A DNA stretch of 64,000 nucleotides from Thermoanaerobacteraceae bacterium. GTDB taxonomy: Bacteria; Bacillota; JADQBR01. A model generated the notes under the pieces. It made no database searches, was not told where the DNA came from, and saw only the letters and a program-made list of their open reading frames with translations. Position 1 is the stretch's first letter; each line of letters opens with the position of its first letter. Below are positions 9,108 to 43,501 of this stretch, piece by piece. The DNA is taken from assembly GCA_017656305.1 (NCBI GenBank), contig JACDOG010000003.1, positions 62,001-126,000 of the forward strand, written 5' to 3'. The position numbers and the translations under genes were made by a program.

Positions 9108-9136
9108 TTGCATTTACAGGGCAGAGGAGGTAAACT
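9108..9136 (+). promoter_or_regulatory. Promoter of the btu operon leader
   Basis: TTGCAT (9108-9113), 17-nt spacer, TAAACT (9131-9136). The same two boxes at the same spacing precede the second leader (14305-14333), although the spacers differ in sequence; this supports a real promoter. Confidence 0.6.
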
Positions 9137-9162
9137 ATAAGTTAAATGAGAATATTTTACCG

Positions 9163-9430
9163 AAACAAGTGAGCGCTTCAATTAAGGTGAAAACAGTTGA
9201 AGCGCTAGAGGGAAGCTGGTGAGAATCCAGCGCGGTCCCGCCACTGTGAGGGGGAGCTTGCCTGCATGATGCCACTGTGCGGCACTCAACTTTGCGTTAA
9301 TCTATAATGACGCAGGCCCATTGGTCTGCAGTTAACTAGTGGTTTGCGAACGTTGAGGTGCTAAGTTGAGTGCCGGATGGGAAGGCGCAGGTATAGCGGT
9401 GAACCCGAGCCAGGAAACCTGCTTGTTTCA
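9163..9430 (+). ncRNA. Cobalamin riboswitch 1 (canonical) upstream of btuF
   Basis: The conserved core is present: the AGAGGGAA block (9207-9214), GGTGAGAATCC, GCGGTCCCGCCACTGTGA and the B12 box AGCCAGGAAACCTGC (9408-9422). A stem AGCGCTTCAA/TTGAAGCGCT (9172-9181/9197-9206) closes the 5' side, and a long peripheral extension lies between the core and the B12 box. TTTGCACC (9438-9445) can pair with GGTGCAAA (9503-9510) in the terminator arm, giving a plausible antiterminator. B12 binding is expected to reduce expression of the transporter operon. Confidence 0.95.
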
Positions 9431-9484
9431 CGAACCATTTGCACCCACGGTTGATGGGCAAAGTGGTATTAAACCGGGAGAATA

Positions 9485-9520
9485 CCCCTTTTGTACACCT
9501 GCGGTGCAAAAGGGGTTTTT
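9485..9520 (+). terminator. Terminator of riboswitch 1
   Basis: CCCCTTTTG (9485-9493) pairs with CAAAAGGGG (9507-9515), with an inner CACC/GGTG, followed by TTTTT. It is the expression platform of the canonical riboswitch. Confidence 0.9.
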
Positions 9521-9543
9521 ATTTTACAAATTAAAATTTAAAA

Positions 9544-9678
9544 GGAATAGGTACTTTATCCCGAGGGGTAAAGTTTAAACTCCTACCGGTGAGACTCCGG
9601 TACGAAACTGTGAAGGATAGCAGTGCGCAAAACTACTTGAGGCTGCCATGATTCCTGAGTCAGTTTGAGGCCTATTCC
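9544..9678 (+). ncRNA. Divergent cobalamin-riboswitch-like element in tandem (copy 1)
   Basis: The 135-nt element is closed by GGAATAGG/CCTATTCC. Inside are a hairpin CTTTATCC-CGAG-GGGTAAAG, the word TTTAAACTCC, a hairpin TACCGGTGAGACTCCGGTA and ACTGTGA (9607-9613). The order and words follow those of the canonical aptamer at 26233-26398: AATAGGT entry, TTAAA, GGTGAGA..TCC, ACTGTRA, AGYCAG and closing CCTATT. However GGGAA reads ACTCC and the B12 box reads AGTCAGTTTGAGGCC. A terminator-like hairpin follows. A variant cobalamin-type aptamer is inferred; the ligand is unknown. Confidence 0.6.
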
Positions 9679-9736
9679 AATCGCACACCTAACTTGCTTG
9701 GGGGTGATTGGATGGGCCGGTGATTTCTGTACATAT

Positions 9737-9764
9737 TTCCCAGTAATAGACCGGGAAGGTTTTA
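9737..9764 (+). terminator. Terminator-like hairpin after the variant element, copy 1
   Basis: TTCCCAGT (9737-9744) pairs with ACCGGGAA (9750-9757) with one mismatch, followed by GGTTTTA. It is weaker than its counterpart at 14932. A perfect palindrome CCTTGCTGCAGCAAGG follows at 9767-9782. Confidence 0.5.
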
Positions 9765-9852
9765 TACCTTGCTGCAGCAAGGAATTTAACAAACTTGGTA
9801 CAAACAGACTGCTGGAAAGACTTCAGATTACATAGTGACAGGAGGTTGTTTC

Positions 9853-10803
9853 ATGACTGCCAAGTCTTACACCAAGACCATAGTATTATTTATTGCTGTA
9901 CTGGTGCTATTGACCAGTTTAACCGGCTGTAGTGATTCTCAGGTGACCGGTAGCAATTACGGAGGACAGGGTAGAACCGGTTCGGATGTTTATCCCGTAA
10001 CCGTTACTGATGTTTTAGGCAGGGAAGTAACTGTAGCCCGTGAGCCTGAAAGAATTGTTTCCTTGTCTCCTGCCGTAACGGAAATTCTCTTTACCTTAAA
10101 CCTGGATGAAAAGATTGTCGGTGTTACTGATTACTGTGATTACCCGGCTGCAGCCTTGGATAAGCCTAAAGTAGGGGGATTTGCTAATCCAAACATGGAA
10201 GTAATTATCAATTTGGAGCCGGATCTTGTCTTTACCTCGGCAGGCGTTCAGGAAGATATACTGCACCAGCTGGAGAAAGTGGGTATTACGGCAGTAGTGC
10301 TTGATGCCGAGGACATTGAAGGTGTACTAAATAACATAAAACTCGCAGGGGAAATTACGGGTTCCGGTGAAAAAGCTGCTGAAGTTGTGTCAAATTTACA
10401 GAAAAGAATAGACAATGTGGCGGAAAAGATTTCCAAAACCAATACAAGGCCGTCCGTCTTTTTTGAGGTTTGGGATGATCCTCTTATGAGTGCAGGTCCC
10501 GGTTCCTTTATTGACGACCTGATAAAGCGGGCAGGCGGAAGGAATATTGCCGGAGATGCCAGGGAACGCTACCCCAAATTCAATCTAGAGGTACTGCTGG
10601 CGGAGAATCCGGATATTTACATTATTAACTCCCACGCACATAAACCGGAGGATATAAAGGCACGCGATGGGTATGCAAGTTTACGTGCTGTGCAGCATGA
10701 CAGGGTCTACAGCATAGAAGATGACTTGGTGACCCTTCCTGGGCCAAGAATTGTGACCGGACTGGAAGAAATGGCCAGGATAATTCACCCGGAAGTCTTT
10801 TAG
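9853..10803 (+). CDS. btuF: Corrinoid/cobalamin ABC transporter substrate-binding lipoprotein
   Basis: A 316-residue BtuF/FhuD-type binding protein. The signal peptide ends with the lipobox SLTGC (Cys26), and a periplasmic-binding-protein type III domain follows, with PERIVSLSPAVTEILF, the glutamate-containing NLEPDLVF and FEVWDDPLMSAGPGSF blocks. Corrinoid specificity is inferred from the cobalamin riboswitch upstream and cbiZ downstream; the family also carries siderophores. The start is ATG 9853 behind GGAGG; the frame opens 18 bp earlier. First gene of btuF-btuC-btuD-cbiZ. Confidence 0.9.
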   Translation: MTAKSYTKTIVLFIAVLVLLTSLTGCSDSQVTGSNYGGQGRTGSDVYPVTVTDVLGREVTVAREPERIVSLSPAVTEILFTLNLDEKIVGVTDYCDYPAAALDKPKVGGFANPNMEVIINLEPDLVFTSAGVQEDILHQLEKVGITAVVLDAEDIEGVLNNIKLAGEITGSGEKAAEVVSNLQKRIDNVAEKISKTNTRPSVFFEVWDDPLMSAGPGSFIDDLIKRAGGRNIAGDARERYPKFNLEVLLAENPDIYIINSHAHKPEDIKARDGYASLRAVQHDRVYSIEDDLVTLPGPRIVTGLEEMARIIHPEVF

Positions 10804-10824
10804 TTTTCATCTGGAGGAATGGGT

Positions 10825-11874
10825 GTGGAATACCGGGAAAGAAAAACACGGTGGAAGCTGATATTTTTTGGCAGCTTAAGCGGTACCATTCTAGTTATGC
10901 TACTGTGCCTGACCATTGGCGCTGTTGACATTTCTGTCGGGGAGACATTTGGCATTGTAGTAAGTAAAATCCTAAAGCTGGGTTCATATTTTAATTTTCC
11001 CCAATATCCAGCTTCTCATGAGGTGATAATCTGGCAGGTGCGGCTGCCGAGGATTATTCTGGCTTCTGCTGTGGGTGCTGCTCTGGCGGCAGTTGGCGGT
11101 GTTTTTCAGGGCTTATTTAAGAACCCTATGGCTGATCCCTACGTGCTGGGTATTTCTGCCGGAGCGTCCCTGGGGGCAGCTTCCGCCATTGCGTTTCAAT
11201 TGCAGTCCGTAATTGGTTTCTTTGCCGTGCCGGCGGCGGCTTTTGCAGGAGCGCTTGCAAGTACTTTTACTGTTTACTGCCTGGGTAAAGTGCGGACCGG
11301 TGTTTCGGTATATACCCTGCTTCTGGCGGGTGTGGCACTGAGTGCTTTTTTCAGCGCCATTACCTCGTTTATTATAGTACTTCATTCCCGGGAGACACAC
11401 CAGATAGTATTTTGGATGATGGGAGGTTTTTCCGGTACTACATGGCTGCATGTAAAAACTGCTGTCCCCGTAATCTGTGGGGGAATCCTTTTGTTATACT
11501 GCTTTGCCAGGGAACTGAATGCCATGCTTTTCGGGGATAACACGGCCAGGCATCTGGGAATTGATTTAAACAGGGTAAAGAAAGCTATTCTGATATTGGC
11601 TGCCATGACTACGGCAGCCGCAGTTGCGGTGAGCGGTACAATTGGTTTTGTGGGGTTGATCATCCCACACATGGTCAGGCTTATGGTGGGCCCGGACCAC
11701 AGGATACTGTTGCCTGCTGCGGCAGTCTTCGGAGCGGCTTTTATGGTGTTAACGGATACAGTAGCCAGGACAATCCTGGCTCCTGCGGAAATTCCTGTCG
11801 GGGTGCTGACGGCATTTTTTGGCGGGCCTTTTTTCATTTACCTGTTGCGAAAGAAGAAGAGTGAGTTTATTTAG
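10825..11874 (+). CDS. btuC: Corrinoid ABC transporter permease
   Basis: A 349-residue FecCD/BtuC-family permease with about ten membrane helices. Family motifs include VRLPRIILASAVGAALA, the FKNPMADPYVLGISAGASLGA block and GTIGFVGLIIPHMVR, the L-loop that contacts the ATPase. GTG 10825 has the best Shine-Dalgarno spacing (GGAGG 10813-10817); the in-frame ATG at 10819 is only 1 nt from it. Confidence 0.93.
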   Translation: MEYRERKTRWKLIFFGSLSGTILVMLLCLTIGAVDISVGETFGIVVSKILKLGSYFNFPQYPASHEVIIWQVRLPRIILASAVGAALAAVGGVFQGLFKNPMADPYVLGISAGASLGAASAIAFQLQSVIGFFAVPAAAFAGALASTFTVYCLGKVRTGVSVYTLLLAGVALSAFFSAITSFIIVLHSRETHQIVFWMMGGFSGTTWLHVKTAVPVICGGILLLYCFARELNAMLFGDNTARHLGIDLNRVKKAILILAAMTTAAAVAVSGTIGFVGLIIPHMVRLMVGPDHRILLPAAAVFGAAFMVLTDTVARTILAPAEIPVGVLTAFFGGPFFIYLLRKKKSEFI

Positions 11875-11904
11875 CTATAAGATGGTATCAAGAGAGGAGA
11901 AAGG

Positions 11905-13170
11905 ATGAAGGGACTGTCGCTGAATATCGACAAACTAAGCTTTAGCTACGGTTCACAAAAAATACTGGAAGATTTGACCGTGCAATTTCAGGCGGGCTCT
12001 TTTGTCAGTATTATCGGTCCCAACGGGTCAGGAAAGACAACCTTGCTAAAAAATATTTCTGCTGCTCTTGTCCCGCAGAAAGGTAAGGTCCTGCTGCAGG
12101 GCCAGGATGTTTTGCGAATTAAACCGAAAAAACTGGCCCGGCAAATGGCTGTAGTGCCTCAGGATACGGCGGTAAACTTTGCCTTCACTGTATTTGAAAC
12201 GGTCCTGATGGGGCGGATGCCTTACCTGAAAAGGTTTGAAAGTGAAAGCGACCGGGATGTGGCCGTAGCCAGGTGGGCTATGGAAGTTACGCATACCTGG
12301 CATCTAAAAGACCGCTCAATAACGGAAATCAGCGGGGGAGAAAGACAGCGGGTCATAGTTGCCAGAGCTCTGGCACAGGAACCTCAGGTAATATTGTTGG
12401 ACGAACCGGTGGCTCACCTTGACCCCCAGCACCAGATGGAACTTCTGGAACTGCTGCAGACCCTGAAAGAAAGCAAGAACCTGACAGTTGTTACCGTGCT
12501 GCATGACCTGAATCTTGCAGCCCAATTTAGCGATTATGTTGTCCTGCTGCATAAAGGCAAAGTATTTGCTGCAGGCCGGCCGGAAGAAGTGCTGACGGTC
12601 AAAAATATTGAGCAGGTATACCGGGTGGAAGTTGTAATTATTCCCAATGAACTGACGGGCAGGTTTAATATTATTCCGGTGGCCAAGAGCACGCCGCCAC
12701 AGGGGAAACTGAGAAACTGCCGAATTCACCTGGTTTGCGGCGGGGGTAGCGGTGCTTTCATAATGGACAGGCTGGTTCGAAGCGGCTACCAGGTTAGTTG
12801 TGGTGTATTAAACATCGGGGATAATGATTGGCGTAAGGCCCGGGAACTGGGCATAGAGATTGCGTACGAAGCTCCGTTTAGCCCTATTTCCGAAAAAGCA
12901 TATCAAAAAAATGAGCGGTTGCTTGATAGAGCGGATGTAGTTGTCCTGCTATCTCTTCCCTTTGGCGCCGGTAACCTGAGTAATTTAGAGCAGGTTTACT
13001 CGGCTTTAAAACAGGGGAAAAAGGTGCTTGTTGTCGGGGACAGGAATTTGGCAGGCAGGGATTTTACCGGCGGTAAAGCGACGGATCTTTATGATGCTAT
13101 TGTTAAAGACGGAGCTGTTTTGCTTGCCGAGGTAAAGGATATTTTTAACGTACTGGAAACCATGTACTAA
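11905..13170 (+). CDS. btuD: Corrinoid ABC transporter ATPase fused to an uncharacterised C-terminal domain
   Basis: A 421-residue protein. Residues 1-250 are a FepC/BtuD-type ATPase with Walker A GPNGSGKTT (38-46), signature ISGGERQR, Walker B VILLDEPVAHLD and H-loop VLHDLN. Residues about 272-421 form an extra domain starting NCRIHLVCGGGSG, with a glycine-rich Rossmann-like first turn, a run ADVVVLLSLPFGAGNL and the end region GKKVLVVGDRN. The extra domain is absent from E. coli BtuD; I recall similar tails on some archaeal and clostridial homologues but assign no function. It lies between btuC and cbiZ. Confidence 0.9.
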   Translation: MKGLSLNIDKLSFSYGSQKILEDLTVQFQAGSFVSIIGPNGSGKTTLLKNISAALVPQKGKVLLQGQDVLRIKPKKLARQMAVVPQDTAVNFAFTVFETVLMGRMPYLKRFESESDRDVAVARWAMEVTHTWHLKDRSITEISGGERQRVIVARALAQEPQVILLDEPVAHLDPQHQMELLELLQTLKESKNLTVVTVLHDLNLAAQFSDYVVLLHKGKVFAAGRPEEVLTVKNIEQVYRVEVVIIPNELTGRFNIIPVAKSTPPQGKLRNCRIHLVCGGGSGAFIMDRLVRSGYQVSCGVLNIGDNDWRKARELGIEIAYEAPFSPISEKAYQKNERLLDRADVVVLLSLPFGAGNLSNLEQVYSALKQGKKVLVVGDRNLAGRDFTGGKATDLYDAIVKDGAVLLAEVKDIFNVLETMY

Positions 13171-13216
13171 AGAACCGGGGATTTGATTTTCTTTTTTGGT
13201 TTGAGGGGTGAACAGC

Positions 13217-14287
13217 TTGTTAATTCACAAGTTCAGCAGCGGAGATAGGGTTCTATTACAGGAAGATACTCTTGTTTTACACTTTGCCGGTACGCGCCGG
13301 ACGGTCAGCACGTCCGTATTTAACGGAGGTTGCCGGGAGGATTTACGGGCTGTTTTCAACCATCACCTGCCGCCTGATAAATGCACGCCTGATGCGCTTC
13401 CTGGGGGGAGTGTGCAAAATTATTTTGCTAATCTCAGCGCCGGATTAAATCTGCCTTGTGATAGGACTAGCGGCATGCTGACCGCTGCTAAAATGGAAAA
13501 TGCCGTGATTAGAACAGCAACTTTCCGCCGGTTGGAAGTTACAGCCGTGGTTACCGCCGGTGTGGATGTCAACGGCGGGCGGGCCGGTGATCCGGCATTC
13601 TATTACGAGGAAGACGGCAGGTGGGAGTATTTAGCGGGGACAATCAATATCATTTTATATATTAATGCTAACCTGCCGGCACATACTCTGGTACGTGCTA
13701 TAGTTACGGCCACGGAAGCCAAAACTGCGGCCCTGGCCGAATTAATGGCTCCCAGCCGTTATTCCAGCGGAATTGCCACCGGTTCCGGTACCGACCAAAT
13801 CATTGCCGTTGCCAATAGCCAAAGCCCGTACCTTTTTACCGATGCAGGTAAACATTCGAAATTGGGGGAATTAATTGGGGTCACGGTAAAACAGGGGGTG
13901 AGACTGGCCCTGGAAAAGGAAACGGGCCTCAACCCCAAACGCCAGTGCAGCGTACTGGCGCGGTTGGAACGATTTGGAATAACAGCCGAAGACTTTTGGC
14001 AGGCTGCTCAGAAGGACGGGATTAAAGTTTTACGTGAGCCATACCTGCGAAAGCTGGAGCAATTAGATAGGGACGAAAACCTGGTGGCTCTTACAGCAGG
14101 CTTACTCCATTTGCTGGATGAGTACCAGTGGGGACTATTATCAGGGGCGGCGCTCATGACAATAGGGACCAGGTTTGTTGAGGCTTCGCTGGGAAAAGTA
14201 CGGATGACTGAGGAATGTGCTGATAATCCTGTTAGTTTTTTGCTTAAACTGTTTGTGCGGGCTGTAAATACCCGGGTGTGCAAATAA
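13217..14287 (+). CDS. cbiZ: Adenosylcobinamide amidohydrolase (cobinamide salvage)
   Basis: CbiZ cleaves the aminopropanol side chain of (adenosyl)cobinamide or pseudo-B12 to give cobyric acid, letting imported corrinoids re-enter synthesis. The family region spans about residues 30-200 with FNGGCREDL, SGMLTAAKMENA, VTAGVDVNGGRAGDP, AGTINIILYINANLP and TATEAKTAALAEL, then ATGSGTDQII. About 130 more residues follow the core. TTG 13217 fits the GAGGGG site best; GTG 13208 overlaps that site. Last gene of the btu operon. Products would feed cbiB and cobD encoded further downstream. Confidence 0.9.
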   Translation: MLIHKFSSGDRVLLQEDTLVLHFAGTRRTVSTSVFNGGCREDLRAVFNHHLPPDKCTPDALPGGSVQNYFANLSAGLNLPCDRTSGMLTAAKMENAVIRTATFRRLEVTAVVTAGVDVNGGRAGDPAFYYEEDGRWEYLAGTINIILYINANLPAHTLVRAIVTATEAKTAALAELMAPSRYSSGIATGSGTDQIIAVANSQSPYLFTDAGKHSKLGELIGVTVKQGVRLALEKETGLNPKRQCSVLARLERFGITAEDFWQAAQKDGIKVLREPYLRKLEQLDRDENLVALTAGLLHLLDEYQWGLLSGAALMTIGTRFVEASLGKVRMTEECADNPVSFLLKLFVRAVNTRVCK

Positions 14288-14304: not shown

Positions 14305-14333
14305 TTGCATAAAGCTTCCAGAGATGGTAAACT
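14305..14333 (+). promoter_or_regulatory. Promoter of the cobK-cbiMNQO leader
   Basis: TTGCAT (14305-14310), 17-nt spacer, TAAACT (14328-14333), the same boxes and spacing as at 9108-9136. It begins 18 bp after cbiZ, so read-through from the btu operon is also possible. Confidence 0.6.
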
Positions 14334-14359
14334 ATAAAATAAATGAGAATATTTTACCG

Positions 14360-14627
14360 AAACAAGTGAGTGCTTCAATTGAAGTGAAAACAGTTGAAGC
14401 ACTAGAGGGAAGCTGGTGAGAATCCAGCGCGGTCCCGCCACTGTGAGGGGGAGCTTGCCTGCATGATGCCACTGTGCGGCACTCAACTTTGCGTTAATCT
14501 ATAATGACGCAGGCCCATTGGTCTGCAGTTAACTAGTGGTTTGCGAACGTTGAGGTGCTAAGTTGAGTGCCGGATGGGAAGGCGCAGGTATAGCGGTGAA
14601 CCCGAGCCAGGAAACCTGCTTGTTTCA
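14360..14627 (+). ncRNA. Cobalamin riboswitch 2 (canonical) upstream of cobK-cbiMNQO
   Basis: It is near-identical to riboswitch 1, including the AGAGGGAA core, GGTGAGAATCC, CCACTGTGA and B12 box AGCCAGGAAACCTGC (14605-14619). In the 5' stem the pair C-G of copy 1 is replaced by T-A (14371/14401), a compensatory change. It is expected to lower cobalt uptake and cobK expression when B12 is sufficient. Confidence 0.95.
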
Positions 14628-14681
14628 CGAACCATTTGCACCCACGGTTGATGGGCAAAGTGGTATTAAACCGGGAGAATA

Positions 14682-14717
14682 CCCCTTTTGTACACCTGCG
14701 GTGCAAAAGGGGTTTTT
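14682..14717 (+). terminator. Terminator of riboswitch 2
   Basis: Same CCCCTTTTG/CAAAAGGGG stem with a T-tract as in the first leader (14682-14690/14704-14712). Confidence 0.9.
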
Positions 14718-14740
14718 ATTTTACAAATTAAAATTTAAAA

Positions 14741-14875
14741 GGAATAGGTACTTTATCCCGAGGGGTAAAGTTTAAACTCCTACCGGTGAGACTCCGGTAC
14801 GAAACTGTGAAGGATAGCAGTGCTCAAAACTACTTGAGGCTGCCATGATTCCTGAGTCAGCTTGAGGCCTATTCC
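14741..14875 (+). ncRNA. Divergent cobalamin-riboswitch-like element in tandem (copy 2)
   Basis: This is the second copy of the element at 9544-9678. It differs at few positions, including a change that extends pairing of CTCAA with TTGAG in the internal hairpin, and AGTCAGC for AGTCAGT in the region matching the B12 box. A strong intrinsic terminator follows at 14932-14961, so this copy has a clear expression platform. Ligand and activity are unknown. Confidence 0.6.
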
Positions 14876-14931
14876 AATCGCACACCTAACTTGTCTGGGG
14901 GTGATTGGATGGGCCTGTGTCTTTTTACCAC

Positions 14932-14961
14932 TCCCCAGTGCCAGACTGGGGATATTTTTTT
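14932..14961 (+). terminator. Strong terminator after the variant element, copy 2
   Basis: TCCCCAGT (14932-14939), 5-nt loop, ACTGGGGA (14945-14952), then TATTTTTTT. It stands 25 bp before the cobK start. Confidence 0.85.
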
Positions 14962-14985: not shown

Positions 14986-15750
14986 ATGATTGCAGTAGTC
15001 TGTCATATCAAAGAGGGACGCGACATAATCCAACTGATCAAGGAAAAGGGACTTGAGGTTGTTGCGCTGACCGATACTGCTTACGGGAAAAAGCTGATAG
15101 CAGGTGCAGGAGTCGAAGTATATTCCGGTGACATTACGGAGACGGCACTGACGCGAATTTTTCAGGATAATGCCGTCCGGGCGCTGGTAGATGTAACGCA
15201 TCCGTATTCACACAACCTGTCCAAAATGCTGCAGCAGGTTTGTGACGATAAGCAGGTTGAATACATACGTTACCTGCGGGCGGAAACGGACCTGCCTGAC
15301 AGCTCCTTGATTTACCCGGTGACTTCCTGGCAGGAGGCGGCAAAATTTGCTCAAAAACTGGGAGATACCATTTTTCTAACCACCGGAAGCAACAATTTGA
15401 AGGAATTTCTTAACTGGGTGGACACCGGGAAAAAACGGGTTGTGGTGAGGGTGTTGCCCGACCACAAAATTATTAAAAAGTGCCAGGACCTGGGGCTAAG
15501 TCCCAAAGATATCGTGGGGATGCAGGGGCCGTTTTCCAAGCAGATTAATAAGGCTACCTTTAAAATGTATAACGCTTCAGTGATTGTAACCAAGGACAGC
15601 GGGCGTGAAGGCGGCACGGATACCAAAATTGCAGCGGCACTGGATTTGAAAATTCCCGTAGTCGTGTTGAAACGGCCGTTTCTACAGCACGGCAGATCAG
15701 CGCGAAGTTATGATGAAATTATTAGCTTTGTCAGTAAATACCGCGACTGA
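14986..15750 (+). CDS. cobK: Precorrin-6A/cobalt-precorrin-6A reductase, first copy
   Basis: A 254-residue CbiJ/CobK-family reductase, which reduces one double bond of (cobalt-)precorrin-6A with NAD(P)H. Family blocks: DVTHPYSHNLSKM near residue 68, IRYLRAE, TTGSNNLKEF, and VTKDSGREGGTDTKI near the C-terminus. It heads the cobalt-import operon cobK-cbiM-cbiN-cbiQ-cbiO. A paralogue (32084-32845) lies in the main cobamide operon, so this organism has two copies of the same step, each under its own riboswitch. Confidence 0.9.
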   Translation: MIAVVCHIKEGRDIIQLIKEKGLEVVALTDTAYGKKLIAGAGVEVYSGDITETALTRIFQDNAVRALVDVTHPYSHNLSKMLQQVCDDKQVEYIRYLRAETDLPDSSLIYPVTSWQEAAKFAQKLGDTIFLTTGSNNLKEFLNWVDTGKKRVVVRVLPDHKIIKKCQDLGLSPKDIVGMQGPFSKQINKATFKMYNASVIVTKDSGREGGTDTKIAAALDLKIPVVVLKRPFLQHGRSARSYDEIISFVSKYRD

Positions 15751-15765
15751 TGGGAGGTTTTTTTG

Positions 15766-16506
15766 GTGTCTAGAAAGATATATTTCATGGTCTTAACGCT
15801 TTTGGTCTTGACTTTTTATCCCAATCCTGCTTATGCCATGCATATCATGGAAGGATTTTTGCCTTTGCCCTGGGCCATATTCTGGGCTGTTATCACACTA
15901 CCGTTTCTCATCTACGGTTTGAAGTCCATTAAGGATACAGTGGAAGAGAACCCGGGTTTTAAAATGCTGCTGGCATTTGCCGGAGCTTTTGCCTTTGTTC
16001 TCTCCGCGCTGAAGATTCCCTCGGTGACCGGCAGTTCCTCTCATCCTACGGGAGTGGGCCTGGGTGCGATCCTGTTTGGACCCACGGTAATGACCGTGAT
16101 CGGAGTGATTATTTTACTGTTTCAGGCACTGCTTTTGGCCCACGGGGGTATCACCACCCTGGGAGCCAATACCTTTTCTATGGCTGTTGTGGGCCCGCTT
16201 GTTTCCTATGGTATCTACAAGGGTGCGCAGAAAGCGGGATTACCCAGGGGACTAGCTGTCTTTTTCGGGGCGGCACTGGGGGACCTGGCTACCTATGTCA
16301 CAACTTCGATACAGCTGGCAGCTGCCTACCCCGATCCTACCGGCGGCATAGCCGCATCCTTAACCAAATTTGTTGGTGTCTTTGCGCTTACTCAGGTACC
16401 CCTGGCTGTTTCTGAGGGGTTGCTGACCGTTGTTGCCGTTAACTTCCTGGTGAGCCACAATAAATCGGACCTGCTGGCACTGTCGGTTATTAAAAGGGAG
16501 GGTTAA
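15766..16506 (+). CDS. cbiM: Cobalt ECF transporter S component CbiM
   Basis: A 246-residue membrane protein. The N-terminus carries a signal peptide ending PAYA, and cleavage would expose Met-His-Ile (MHIMEGFLP), the metal-binding N-terminus typical of CbiM/NikM. Helices with the family blocks [14 protein letters not shown] and [23 protein letters not shown] follow. GTG 15766 is chosen because GGGAGG lies 8 nt upstream. Second gene of the cobalt-import operon. Confidence 0.95.
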
Positions 16507-16508
16507 TA

Positions 16509-16793
16509 ATGAGAAAAAACATCGTGTTATTGCTGCTGGCGGTTGTGATTGTGTTTATGCCCCTGGTGATAAATCCCGATGCCGAATACAGTGGTGCGGA
16601 TAGTGAAGCGGAAGCGGTGATAGCGCAGATTCAACCTGATGCCGAGCCGTGGTTTACCCCATTATGGGAACCGCCCAGCGGTGAAATTGAAAGCTTGCTG
16701 TTTGCGCTGCAGGCAGCTGCCGGTGCAGGGGTAATCTGCTACTTCCTGGGCTATCATGTGGGCAAAAGAAAGGGCACGGGAGCGGAACAATAA
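16509..16793 (+). CDS. cbiN: Cobalt ECF transporter small subunit CbiN
   Basis: A 94-residue protein with two membrane segments (about 5-21 and 62-80) joined by an extracytoplasmic loop containing GADSEAEAVI and EPWFTPLWEPPSGEIESLLFAL, the CbiN pattern. CbiN is needed with CbiM for cobalt loading. It is 2 bp from cbiM and directly abuts cbiQ. Confidence 0.93.
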   Translation: MRKNIVLLLLAVVIVFMPLVINPDAEYSGADSEAEAVIAQIQPDAEPWFTPLWEPPSGEIESLLFALQAAAGAGVICYFLGYHVGKRKGTGAEQ

Positions 16794-17573
16794 ATGTTTA
16801 AAATTGACCATTTTGCATATACCAACAGGCTCAAAGCAGTGCACCCGGCGGAAAAATTCGGCTTTGCCATGATAACCCTGTCACTGTGCGTGGGCTTAAA
16901 TTCGCTTCCTGTTTCGGTGGCAACGCTGACCATCATGTCCTTTGCCGTTGTTGTTCTGGCAGGTACGCCTTGGCGGTTTTACGTAAAACTGCTTACCCTG
17001 CCTTTGGGGTTTTTACTTATGGGTATTGTGGCTGTTGTTTTTTCCGTATCCTCCGTGGCCGCCGGTTATCTCTGGGGTTTTCACCTGGCCGGAGTTTATG
17101 TTGGGGTTACGGAGGACAGCCTGTACTTTGCAGTGCAGCTGTTTTTCAAGGTTTTAGGCGCGGTTTCCTGCCTGTATTTCTTGGCACTGACCACGCCGCT
17201 GACTGATATTCTGCAGGTGTTGCGAAAACTCCGGGTGCCCCCGCTCTTTTTGGAACTGATGATGCTGATTTACCGCTTCATCTTTGTCCTGCTGGAAACA
17301 GCCGGGCGTATTCACCTGTCGCAAAGTTCGCGCTGGGGTTATGCCACAATCACAGCGTCCTACCGGTCGCTGGCCGGCTTGATAGCCAACCTCTTTGCCA
17401 GGGCTTACTGGCGTTCCCAAGTGAGTTTCCATGCTCTCCTTTCCAGGGGTTACACCGGTAGGTTGGAAGTGCTGGAATCGGATTACAGGCTGTCCTGGAA
17501 AAACATCACGGTAATAACTGCAGTGGATATGTTGCTGGCAGTTTTTGGTTTGTATGGGAGGGGAATCATTTGA
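16794..17573 (+). CDS. cbiQ: Cobalt ECF transporter T component CbiQ
   Basis: A 259-residue EcfT-family membrane protein that couples CbiM to the ATPase. It has hydrophobic segments in the first half and the coupling-helix region LMMLIYRFIFVLLETAGRI, with an arginine-rich segment AYWRSQVSFHALLSRGYTG near the end that matches the conserved A-R-G box. It overlaps cbiO by 4 bp. Confidence 0.93.
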   Translation: MFKIDHFAYTNRLKAVHPAEKFGFAMITLSLCVGLNSLPVSVATLTIMSFAVVVLAGTPWRFYVKLLTLPLGFLLMGIVAVVFSVSSVAAGYLWGFHLAGVYVGVTEDSLYFAVQLFFKVLGAVSCLYFLALTTPLTDILQVLRKLRVPPLFLELMMLIYRFIFVLLETAGRIHLSQSSRWGYATITASYRSLAGLIANLFARAYWRSQVSFHALLSRGYTGRLEVLESDYRLSWKNITVITAVDMLLAVFGLYGRGII

Positions 17574-18424
17574 CGGAAAAAATACTGGAAGTGGAAGACT
17601 TGTATTTTAAATATGAAGATGGAACAGAGGCCCTTCGGGGAATTACCCTGGCCATTGAAAGAGGGAAGAAGACTATCCTGCTGGGTGCCAATGGAGCGGG
17701 AAAGTCCACGTTGTTTCTGCATTTCAACGGGGTATACCGTCCGGAGCGCGGGGTTGTGCGGTTCCAGGGGGAGCCCGTCAAGTATAATAACGCATTCCTA
17801 AAAAAGTTGCGGAAGAATGTAGGGATTGTCTTCCAGGACCCCGATACGCAGCTGTTTTCCGCCAACGTGTTTCAAGAAATTTCTTTCGGTCCGCTGAACC
17901 TCGGCTTGTCTCAGGAAGAAGCCCGTCAACGGGTGGAACAGGCCATGGCGGAAACGGGCATCACCCACCTGCGGGACAGGCCCACCCACCTGCTCAGCTA
18001 CGGTGAAAAGAAACGTGTAGCTATAGCCGATATTTTAGCCATGCAGCCGGAAGTGATTATTTTTGACGAGCCCACTGCCTGGCTGGATCCCGCAAGTCAC
18101 CGGCAGGTTGTGGCGCTGCTGGAGGATATCAATAGACAGGGCAGGACACTAGTGCTTTCCACTCACGATGTAGACCTGGCTTATTCCTGGGCGGATTACA
18201 TCATTGTGTTAAAGGAGGGCAGGGTAGTCGGGGAAGGTACCCCCGAAATCATTTTTCGAAATGATACACTGCTGGAAACAGCAGGCCTGGCAAAGCCGTG
18301 GCTGGTGGAAGTATATGACCAGCTGTTGCACAAGGGGTGGATACGGGAGACCGAGCAGCTGCCCCGGTCAAAAGAGGAACTGTTTCACGTGCTTGGGCAT
18401 CGTAAGACCGTGTCTTTCGCTTGA
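17570..18424 (+). CDS. cbiO: Cobalt ECF transporter ATPase CbiO
   Basis: A 284-residue ABC ATPase of the ECF type: Walker A GANGAGKST, FQDPDTQLFS Q-loop region, signature LSYGEKKR, Walker B VIIFDEPTAWLDP and H-loop STHDVD. The start is TTG 17570 after GGAGGGG, overlapping cbiQ. Last gene of the operon; a very strong hairpin with T-tract follows. Confidence 0.95.
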   Translation: MTEKILEVEDLYFKYEDGTEALRGITLAIERGKKTILLGANGAGKSTLFLHFNGVYRPERGVVRFQGEPVKYNNAFLKKLRKNVGIVFQDPDTQLFSANVFQEISFGPLNLGLSQEEARQRVEQAMAETGITHLRDRPTHLLSYGEKKRVAIADILAMQPEVIIFDEPTAWLDPASHRQVVALLEDINRQGRTLVLSTHDVDLAYSWADYIIVLKEGRVVGEGTPEIIFRNDTLLETAGLAKPWLVEVYDQLLHKGWIRETEQLPRSKEELFHVLGHRKTVSFA

Positions 18425-26194: not shown

Positions 26195-26232
26195 GAACTT
26201 TAGAATAGAGTAAGTAAAGCTTAATAGCGGGA

Positions 26233-26398
26233 CGTAATAGGTGTCGTGACGACTTAAAAGGGAAGTCCGTACCTTCCGTGGGAAGGGAACGGCGCGGTCC
26301 CCGCCACTGTAAGTGGGTAGTCACTTGTGGAGCCACTGGGATTATCCGGGAAGGAACAAGTGAACGATGACCCATAGCCAGGAGACCTGCCTATTACG
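26233..26398 (+). ncRNA. Cobalamin riboswitch 3 (canonical) upstream of cbiD
   Basis: P1 is CGTAATAGG/CCTATTACG. The core has TTAAAAGGGAA, CGGTCCCCGCCACTGTAA and GGGAAGG, and ends with a perfect B12 box AGCCAGGAGACCTGCC (26376-26391). A terminator follows at 26465. It controls the de novo cobamide operon. Unlike the two leaders upstream it has no second element. Confidence 0.97.
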
Positions 26399-26464
26399 CA
26401 AGTCTGCAGCAGTCCTACGGGGCATAGGATAATGCGTTAAGGTGAGACCTTAATGTAGCATTAG

Positions 26465-31380: not shown

Positions 31381-32087
31381 GCCCGGGAGATGAAGAATAC
31401 ATGTGCGGTAGGGCACGACAGTGCCTAAGCAGCAGCGATGTAATCGTGGGCTACAAGACTTACCTGTCCTTGATCAAGCACCTGATTGGCGAAGATCAGC
31501 AGGTTGTTTCTTCGGGAATGACCAGGGAAGTGGAACGCTGTGAAAAAGCAATTGCGCTGGCAGAGCAGGGTTTGAGGGTCAGTCTCGTTAGCAGCGGTGA
31601 TCCCGGTGTTTACGGTATGGCGGGGATTCTTTACCAGTTGTTGGAGCAGAAAGATAGTGACATTCCCGTGGAGGTTGTGCCGGGAATTACTGCCGCCAGT
31701 GCGGCGGCGGCCTCTTTGGGAGCACCGCTGATGCACGATTTTGCCTGCATTAGTCTCAGCGACCTGCTGACACCGTGGTCCACCATATTAAAGAGAGTGG
31801 AATACGCGGTCAGAGGCGATTTTGTCATAGCACTGTACAACCCCAAAAGTAAAAAACGGGTGAAACATATTGAAGAAGTACGGGAACTGCTGCTGAACAT
31901 TTTGTCTCCGGATACGCCCGTAGGTATCGTTCGCAATGCCAAACGGGGGCAGGAGGAAGTAATAATTACCAACCTGAAAGATTTTACTTCACATACCATC
32001 GACATGTTTACCACAGTGATTATCGGCAACAGCCAGTCCTATGTGAGGGACGGAAAGTTCATCACACCCCGGGGGTATCAACTGTGA
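31266..32087 (+). CDS. cbiH: Cobalt-precorrin-3 C17-methyltransferase
   Basis: A 273-residue frame. The methylase domain starts at HIYIVGLGPGDEEYM (about residue 32) and continues with VIVGYKTYLSLI, SSGDPGVYGMAGILYQL, PGITAASAAAASLGAPL and IALYNPKSKKRVKHI, which fit CbiH/CobJ (ring contraction at C-17). The only standard start codon is ATG 31266, giving a 31-residue non-homologous head and a 115-bp overlap with cbiG. An ATT or ATC start near 31360 is an alternative. It overlaps cbiJ by 4 bp. Confidence 0.93.
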   Translation: MRTSSHAGGKKPQADCTENNLSRDYGSSGRGHIYIVGLGPGDEEYMCGRARQCLSSSDVIVGYKTYLSLIKHLIGEDQQVVSSGMTREVERCEKAIALAEQGLRVSLVSSGDPGVYGMAGILYQLLEQKDSDIPVEVVPGITAASAAAASLGAPLMHDFACISLSDLLTPWSTILKRVEYAVRGDFVIALYNPKSKKRVKHIEEVRELLLNILSPDTPVGIVRNAKRGQEEVIITNLKDFTSHTIDMFTTVIIGNSQSYVRDGKFITPRGYQL

Positions 32088-32845
32088 TACTGGTTATCGG
32101 GGGAACCGCTGATGGCCGCATGCTGGCGGAGTACCTGCAGCAACTGGGCTACCGGGTGACTGTTTCCGTGACTACTGACCTGGGTGGTAAGCTGTTGCAA
32201 GGTGCTGGGATAGACGTTATCCGAGACCGGTTTACTCCGGAGACGCTGTCGCAGGTAATACGGCGACAAGGCGTTGCTGCAGTGGTGGATGCCAGCCACC
32301 CCTATGCTGTAGAAATATCAAAATTGGCGCAACAAGTCTGTCAGGCGGAAAAAATACCCTACATTCGATACGAGCGGCGGCCTGTAGAGCTACCCCGGCA
32401 CCCCCTGGTCAGCAAGGTGACTGGCTGGGAGGAGGTTACGGCGGCAGTGGCTGCTGTGCCGGGACCCGTCTTTTTGACAGTAGGTGTCAAGCCCCTGGCA
32501 ATACTTTACCAGGCGGGCTTGATGCGGCGCCGGCGGGTTATTGCCCGGGTACTGCCGGAAGAAAGCAGCATCCGGGCATGCAAGCAATACGGGGTGGCGG
32601 AAATTATTGCCTTTTGCGGTGTGGCCAGTAAGGAATTAAATATGGCCCTGTTTAAGCAGTACAATGCCGGGGTAGTTGTAACCAAGGACAGCGGCGCACC
32701 TGGGGGGACTACGGCAAAAATCGAGGCAGCGCTGGTACTGGAGATACCCATTGTGGTGGTGCAGCGGCCTGCTGTTACCTATAAAAATCAGGTTAGTACC
32801 TTTGACGGTATTGCTCAATTTCTCTGGGAGAGGGGATTGAAATGA
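32084..32845 (+). CDS. cbiJ: Cobalt-precorrin-6A reductase, second copy
   Basis: A 253-residue CbiJ/CobK-family reductase: VIGGTADGRMLAEYLQQLG, VDASHPYAVEISKLAQQVC, FLTVGVKPL and VTKDSGAPGGTTAKIEAAL. It performs the same reduction as the paralogue at 14986-15750, but this one sits in pathway order within the main operon and is likely the housekeeping copy. It overlaps cbiH and cbiX by 4 bp each. Confidence 0.93.
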   Translation: MILVIGGTADGRMLAEYLQQLGYRVTVSVTTDLGGKLLQGAGIDVIRDRFTPETLSQVIRRQGVAAVVDASHPYAVEISKLAQQVCQAEKIPYIRYERRPVELPRHPLVSKVTGWEEVTAAVAAVPGPVFLTVGVKPLAILYQAGLMRRRRVIARVLPEESSIRACKQYGVAEIIAFCGVASKELNMALFKQYNAGVVVTKDSGAPGGTTAKIEAALVLEIPIVVVQRPAVTYKNQVSTFDGIAQFLWERGLK

Positions 32846-43183: not shown

Positions 43184-43375
43184 CCGAGGTGAGGTAGAGG
43201 CGCGAATCGCCATCAGTACTATAGGTGAGGAGGGCACCTGTGATCCTATAGGAAAGGGGCATTCGCCGAAGTCTAAGAACGGCTGCGGTTCTTGGGCTGG
43301 GCCTGTGCCGAACAGGTACAGGACTGTCACCAGAGAATACCCCTGATTCTCTGGTGGAGAACTATCTCGCTCTTA
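43184..43375 (+). ncRNA. Lysine riboswitch (L-box)
   Basis: P1 arms GAGGTAG (43191-43197) and CTATCTC (43362-43368) close the aptamer. The conserved words AGAGGCGCGAA, AGTACTATAGG, GGAAAGGGGCATTCGCCGAAG, the GGCTGGGCCTGTGCC region, GGACTGTCACC and TGGAGAACTATCTC follow the known L-box order. Lysine binding should favour the terminator at 43411 and reduce lysA. Confidence 0.96.
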
Positions 43376-43447: not shown

Positions 43448-43501
43448 ACTTGCTCATCTCTGAAGAAAATTTTATTAACATAGAAAGGGAGAGGGGAATT
43501 G

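Follow-up and report, generated by a model that had tools for sequence, protein, structure and literature searches.

A conserved RNA element, probably descended from the cobalamin riboswitch, follows canonical B12 riboswitches ahead of cobalt and corrinoid uptake operons

In the adenine pbuE riboswitch of Bacillus subtilis, the aptamer helix P1 and the terminator are mutually exclusive, and the ligand-stabilized aptamer blocks invasion by the terminator strand. Known riboswitch variants have usually acquired a new ligand through minor alterations of the binding pocket they inherited. Among described tandem leaders, a TPP riboswitch (OFF) followed by a riboswitch for its precursor HMP-PP (ON) occurs 131 times (PMC9481103). 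Tandems with NOT A AND B logic also include AdoCbl followed by c-di-GMP-I; a tandem of AdoCbl with a cobalt-sensing (NiCo) riboswitch might be expected and was not seen, and that review did not cover associations with orphan candidates (PMC9481103). For corrinoids, an activating riboswitch, based on a kissing loop, was first reported in 2023; that of Alkalihalobacillus halodurans cobT has a cobalamin aptamer, an L5-L13 kissing loop, and a P13 antiterminator (PMC10653944).

We analysed a stretch of 64,000 nucleotides (the window) from a Thermoanaerobacteraceae bacterium, in which a 135-nt element had been proposed to be a variant cobalamin-type riboswitch placed behind a canonical one. Every motif that the original prediction named lies where it had placed it, including P1 (GGAATAGG/CCTATTCC), a hairpin, TTTAAA, GGTGAGACTCC, ACTGTGA, AGTCAG, and the closing CCTATTCC, and the position behind a canonical B12 riboswitch and its terminator is borne out by the RF00174 match and the terminator scan (Table 1). 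A covariance model built from 18 elements, R1, recovers the variants in the window with exactly the boundaries 9544-9678 and 14741-14875. Both copies are inside a 601-bp block (9122-9722 and 14319-14919, 97.8% identity) that is duplicated ahead of two different operons, and they are therefore not independent evidence. Since both are also in the R1 training set, independent support was taken from other genomes. The predicted fold of copy 1, closed by P1, has an energy of -48 kcal/mol versus -35.6 kcal/mol in shuffles (z -3.0). Its P6 arm consists of a lower stem (AACTG/CAGTT), a middle stem (AGGA/TCCT), an asymmetric loop with ATGA, an apical stem, and a loop ending in ACTT. The leader holds two aptamer-like folds with a terminator each, with no gene and, on the + strand, no promoter-like site between them, the arrangement of a tandem riboswitch. 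The cbiD-led biosynthesis operon, which has a canonical riboswitch without the variant, provides a contrast within the window.

Table 1. Positions of the tandem leaders, their parts, and neighbouring features in the window
Feature	Coordinates	Strand	Basis or remark
Canonical cobalamin riboswitch aptamer, first element of tandem copy 1	9150..9440	+	RF00174, 97.9 bits
Intrinsic terminator of canonical riboswitch copy 1, then T tail	9484..9516	+	terminator scan
Variant element copy 1, P1 to P1' core	9544..9678	+	R1 model 101 bits, E 1.7e-22
P1 5' strand and conserved GGT (GGAATAGGT), copy 1	9544..9552	+	sequence, model-fitted alignment
P2 hairpin, copy 1	9553..9574	+	covarying stem, conserved YGAG loop
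TTAAA directly after P2, copy 1	9575-9579	+	
P4-like hairpin with GGTGAGACTCC	9584..9602	+	only a minority of homologues have one
P6 arm, copy 1	9605..9666	+	alignment, pair counts
T1 hairpin copy 1	9669..9718	+	-27.3 kcal/mol; 5' arm contains P1 3' strand; T run weak
Second terminator copy 1, degenerate (TTCCC...GGGAA, TTTT)	9737..9763	+	inspection; not reported by terminator scan
Operon 1 under tandem leader	9835..14287	+	BtuF-like corrinoid substrate-binding protein, BtuC-like permease, BtuD-like ATPase, CbiZ
Canonical cobalamin riboswitch, tandem copy 2	14347..14637	+	RF00174, 97.6 bits
Intrinsic terminator of canonical riboswitch copy 2	14681..14713	+	terminator scan
Variant element copy 2	14741..14875	+	R1 model about 102 bits (102.1)
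T1 terminator-like hairpin and T run, copy 2	14865..14926 (hairpin 14865-14916)	+	-28.0 kcal/mol, then CTTTTT
T2 terminator copy 2	14932..14952	+	terminator scan
Operon 2, cobalt uptake	14986..18424	+	cbiJ, cbiM, cbiQ, cbiO-like ATPase
Third canonical cobalamin riboswitch, ahead of cbi biosynthesis genes	26222..26408	+	RF00174; without variant element

The cobalamin family models do not recognize the window copy. RF00174 gave no match to it at E<=10 (Rfam 15) and its gathering cutoff of 31.5 bits was not reached, RF01482 (AdoCbl_riboswitch) and RF01689 (AdoCbl-variant) gave none in window 9441-9834 at E<=10, and all 4227 Rfam families run on the same interval at that threshold returned four implausible matches, none of the cobalamin clan; the comparison with these three models, which the original prediction had put forward, thus turned out negative. 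Two relatives do pass the RF00174 cutoff. G121a, the least derived one, aligns with RF00174 from end to end (59 bits) but lacks J3/4, L5, and peripheral parts, and G125 scores 32.7 bits (25.1 on a shorter piece); G048 reaches 20.9 bits. R1 in turn picks up canonical riboswitches, among them the one at window 26234-26397 (30 bits). Because of these bridging relatives and the reciprocal model matches, descent from the B12 aptamer is well supported. RF00174 (clan CL00101) and the variants have in common the GGU-P2-UUAAA entry, the fold-closing P1, and the UGA and AUGA internal loops of P6, the last seen in the alignment of G121a to RF00174, and less derived variants retain a GAGYCAG remnant.

What the variants have lost is as uniform as what they have kept. 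Among 38 aligned variants and 33 canonical partners, the J3/4 GGGAA is found in 1 versus 33, P5/L5 (the kissing-loop strand) in 0 versus 33, the B12 box AGCCAGGAGACCUG in 0 versus 30 (allowing up to two substitutions), and the second GGGAAG in 0 versus 32. The GCCACUG/GGGAAGG extension is missing as well, and P4 is usually absent, with an L4-like motif in 9 of the 38. The original prediction had already noticed the altered GGGAA and B12 box, a reading that these counts extend to the aligned homologues. Conversely, the block AGG[TC]-hairpin-TTAA, in the same order as in the RF00174 consensus, is present in 36/38 variants versus 4/33 partners, and YGAG in the P2 loop in 34/38 versus 2/33, so that P2 and UUAAA are far more conserved in the variants than in their partners. 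Since the same signatures are lost and the GGU-P2-UUAA block with YGAG is retained across the family, the variants are a consistent, different family and not the product of random decay. By the features that define a cobalamin riboswitch, the element does not qualify as one. The likeness to a B12 aptamer that had been claimed from the window alone therefore holds in part: P1-P2-UUAAA and the P6 loops are shared, but GGTGAGACTCC, ACTGTGA, and AGTCAG are not conserved in most homologues.

These losses bear directly on whether the element still senses a corrinoid. A remodelled pocket might bind cobinamide or another incomplete form, making the element an activating or second-threshold switch. The homology to RF00174, the known activating corrinoid riboswitch that responds best to cobinamide (PMC10653944), and the position of copy 1 ahead of a btuFCD-cbiZ salvage operon would all fit. 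However, almost no member retains J3/4, P5/L5, or the B12 box and most have lost P4, and the known repressing and activating corrinoid switches both depend on the L5-L13 kissing loop (PMC10653944); with L5 missing, a loop of the cobT type cannot form. We regard this alternative as unlikely. With the hallmarks of the known corrinoid site missing, it seems more likely that the ligand is something other than a complete corrinoid.

The family extends well beyond the window. BLAST among 101 relatives gave one strong match (79%) and weak ones, and four of the five non-self loci have a canonical RF00174 riboswitch just upstream on the same strand; the match L005 (G089), which has no RF00174 nearby, was dismissed as chance. 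Searching with a pattern for the conserved hairpin revealed more elements, and the reversed control pattern had no matches. A scan of GTDB genome contigs gave eight stretches in five genomes, all of them Bacillota MAGs or Desulfotomaculia relatives such as Desulfofundulus and Desulfovirgula. R1 matched in 36 of 399 genomes sampled from the phylum, where match lengths of 122-143 nt correspond to variants and about 158-182 nt to canonical riboswitches. For alignment, 38 variants from 26 genomes were retained, and an unfiltered search added six at cbiM loci (25-42 bits). The original prediction had proposed a search of other Clostridia for homologues behind B12 riboswitches, and such homologues were found: the family comprises 44 elements from 26 genomes of one phylum, with compensatory changes. 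Elements of Desulfovirgula (L027) and D. thermosubterraneus (L030) were left out of the count as near copies of those of G276. Two candidates were rejected: the supposed variant pair at G276:C14 is a single canonical riboswitch split by a long insert, and at G161:C50:74380 a decayed canonical copy precedes an intact one. A blastn search of plasmids and a pattern scan of viral contigs gave no match to the element.

The genomic context is constant. Of the 38 variants, 37 come directly after a canonical RF00174 riboswitch, at a distance of 67-198 nt (median 99; mostly 67-144 nt, with 198 nt for G121b), and the remaining one, G161b, is behind another variant that is itself behind a canonical riboswitch. 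Each of the six additional variants lies between a canonical riboswitch and cbiM. Thus all 44 have a canonical cobalamin riboswitch upstream on the same strand, and no stand-alone variant was seen among the followed matches (a few below 27 bits were left aside). Downstream of the 38, with some genes identified by eye from translations, cbiM follows directly in 11 and cbiJ then cbiM in 9; genes for BtuF-type corrinoid-binding proteins follow in 5, those for large exported DUF4430/prenyltransferase-like/SLH proteins in 8, and a DUF2162 transporter gene in 2 (a single leader with two variants), with three contexts unassigned (G276b, G261, G060). At least one CbiM gene occurs in each of the 26 genomes, and in all 26 a canonical riboswitch and a variant precede a cobalt-type cbiM operon (profile positions 1 to about 202). 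The cbiM paralogues at four other loci have only weak canonical-length R1 matches.

Since the window copies are part of a recent duplicated block and relatives show tandem canonical pairs and remnants, one could take the element for a degenerating duplicate of the B12 riboswitch with no present function. The original prediction had likewise allowed for a degenerate element kept for structure. But identical parts have been lost and kept across many families, the element stands at the cobalt cbiM operon in every one of the genomes, strong T1 hairpins occur in 35 of 38 variants, and both strands have changed in most pairs of the fold (below). From these comparative data, decay appears already largely refuted, and we consider it very improbable; structural degeneration as the original prediction had put it is disfavoured by the covariation together with the uniform pattern of loss and retention.

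The P1-P2-P6 core is conserved with strong covariation. MAFFT misregistered the 5' strand of P6, and pairs were therefore counted on a model-fitted alignment of the 38 sequences; since fitting to the model biases an alignment in favour of the structure, we report slid and shuffled controls alongside, and there is kinship within the sample, as the sequences of the genus-level cluster g16 are related. Of the cells, 92.3% are paired; column shuffles give 76.1% and slid controls 31-49%. Changes on both sides were found in 22 of 28 pairs, with 218 double-changed cells versus 69 in shuffles, and none of 500 shuffles reached the observed values on any measure. RNAalifold agrees on 20 of 26 pairs. In addition, the apical pairings of P6, GCCCCTTCAA/TTGAGGGGGC, ATGAATGTAA/TTACATTCAT, and GGGTATTTAA/TTAAATACCT, are visible already in the plain MAFFT alignment. 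The unpaired positions are conserved as well: GG(U/C) after P1, YGAG in the P2 loop, and UUAAA, and in P6 the ACU ending the apical loop and the AUGA of the internal loop, where ATG[AC] is present in 37/38 variants.

The strong conservation of the P2 loop and its flanks, with YGAG much more frequent than in the canonical partners, might suggest the site of an RNA-binding or antitermination protein, or else a ligand-free attenuator acting as a fixed kinetic gate. A covarying fold of several helices, with conserved nucleotides in its internal loops and P1/T1 as a platform, instead resembles an aptamer with its expression platform, and the conserved parts come from a known aptamer. We therefore consider a protein target or a ligand-free gate improbable, more so than a corrinoid pocket.

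The expression platform lies directly at the end of the fold. The original prediction had described a terminator of the element's own, strong in copy 2, which corresponds to the scanned T2 of that copy and to a counterpart in copy 1 that is degenerate on inspection. It had missed a nearer terminator-like hairpin, T1, that shares the 3' strand of P1. Because the P1 3' strand is the 5' arm of T1, P1 and T1 are mutually exclusive. T1, defined by the use of at least 4 of the 9 P1 nucleotides and a T-rich tail following, reaches -17 kcal/mol or better in 35 of 38 elements versus 84 of 760 dinucleotide-shuffled flanks; a good T run is missing from window copy 1, G097, and G013. In many genomes a second terminator, T2, is present, and its 5' flank can on inspection pair with the G-rich 3' half of T1, as in copy 2 (GGGGGTG with CACTCCC). 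The conserved GGGAGGTGATT was tried as a Shine-Dalgarno sequence and rejected: the Desulfofundulus group changes it together with its T1 partner, and it is therefore read as a stem and not as a ribosome site. In copy 1, on the btuF side, the T run of T1 and T2 have decayed, and both are intact in copy 2. A long insertion in the T1 loop separates the terminator arms of G121b (L016 / G121:C10:66995 onward).

According to our energy estimates, which ignore kinetics, tertiary structure, and ligands, the P1 and no-P1 states differ by a median of +3.4 kcal/mol (range -6.6 to +15.1), with +1.6 and -0.9 kcal/mol for the window copies, and several genomes are predicted to prefer the P1 state even with no ligand present. 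This modelled closeness is as would be expected for a switch. In many genomes the energies favour T1 over P1, and one might argue that the element is an ordinary second terminator in which only the T1 and T2 hairpins matter and the overlap with P1 is incidental. Yet conservation and covariation extend over the entire fold upstream, and an operon behind a strong terminator that nothing relieves would stay permanently off; this alternative is the least credible of those considered.

Given its conserved covarying fold coupled to a computed expression platform, the element probably acts as an attenuator of transcription in its own right, the second in a two-part leader that would form a NOT B12 AND X gate. 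When B12 is low, RNA polymerase would escape the AdoCbl-controlled terminator and transcribe the second element. A ligand X, whose existence we infer, would then stabilize the P1-P2-P6 fold, so that P1 keeps its 3' strand, the base of T1 is blocked, and the polymerase reads on; in the absence of X, it would be stopped by T1 and, in many genomes, also by T2. The ON sign would hold only if the ligand stabilizes P1. The whole leader would thereby compute NOT B12 AND X for the cobalt and corrinoid uptake operons. More tentatively, the variants may be a new orphan ON-riboswitch class, derived from the AdoCbl riboswitch by loss of the corrinoid core and re-use of the P1-P2-P6 periphery for a different ligand. 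The original description as a variant cobalamin-type riboswitch thus stands as to descent and tandem regulatory role, which are both supported, but not as to type, given the missing defining features and RF00174 match. Cobalt activating its own uptake would, with an ON sign, make little physiological sense. By analogy with the TPP/HMP-PP logic, in which the product is OFF and the precursor ON, and with the pbuE-like competition, our leading guess is that X is a corrinoid-pathway precursor or a signal of that pathway's state, which fits both the genes and the TPP precedent.

In comparison with described systems, the predicted ON sign through an aptamer-dependent antiterminator resembles the A. 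halodurans cobT switch (PMC10653944), but here it is P1 that competes with the terminator. Two independent transcription switches in one leader are also known from AdoCbl doublets and mixed tandems, whereas the second element here belongs to no listed class (PMC9481103). The proposed competition between aptamer and terminator is like that of pbuE, with an unrelated aptamer and ligand, and overlap of the terminator with P1 also sets the variants apart from their canonical partners. No description of the element was found in open-licence papers, and no Rfam 15 family covers it. A widespread riboswitch seems to have lost its pocket signature with the scaffold still under selection, and the intermediates are visible in living genomes. 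That it consistently accompanies cobalt and corrinoid uptake genes but is missing from the biosynthesis operon in the window suggests that cobalt homeostasis has a second input; a tandem of AdoCbl with a cobalt-related sensor would be expected but had not been seen (PMC9481103).

Several leaders of unusual composition were observed. A triple leader (L015 / G161:C50:26841-27459) has a canonical B12 riboswitch and two variants, followed by DUF2162 and MotA/ExbB-like genes, and another (L108 / G060:C45:72486-73286) holds a canonical riboswitch, a variant, and a second canonical riboswitch within about 800 bases. Just past T1 at L121 (G212:C2 after 38382; also in G371) lies a remnant of a B12 riboswitch 3' half (GGTGAACCTGAGCCAGGAGTCCTGC), which is the trace of a past tandem duplication. 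The canonical partner of G212a (L121:264-464), like those at similar g16 loci, matches RF00174 only from 45 to 169 and seems to have no P2, and the variant behind it keeps P2. The large exported proteins with prenyltransferase-like repeats, DUF4430, and SLH are under B12-riboswitch control at L063, L066, L072, L074, G237a, G015, G132, and G098; they are candidates for corrinoid capture at the surface, DUF4430 being presumably related to the intrinsic-factor type fold. The window has two CbiJ/CobK paralogues, one heading the cobalt-uptake operon (14986-15750) and one in the biosynthesis operon (32084-32845), and cbiJ (precorrin-6A reductase) also leads the cobalt-uptake operon behind the tandem leader in several relatives. 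Finally, a lysine riboswitch (RF00168, 124 bits) is located at 43187-43372 of the window, upstream of the ORF at 43499.
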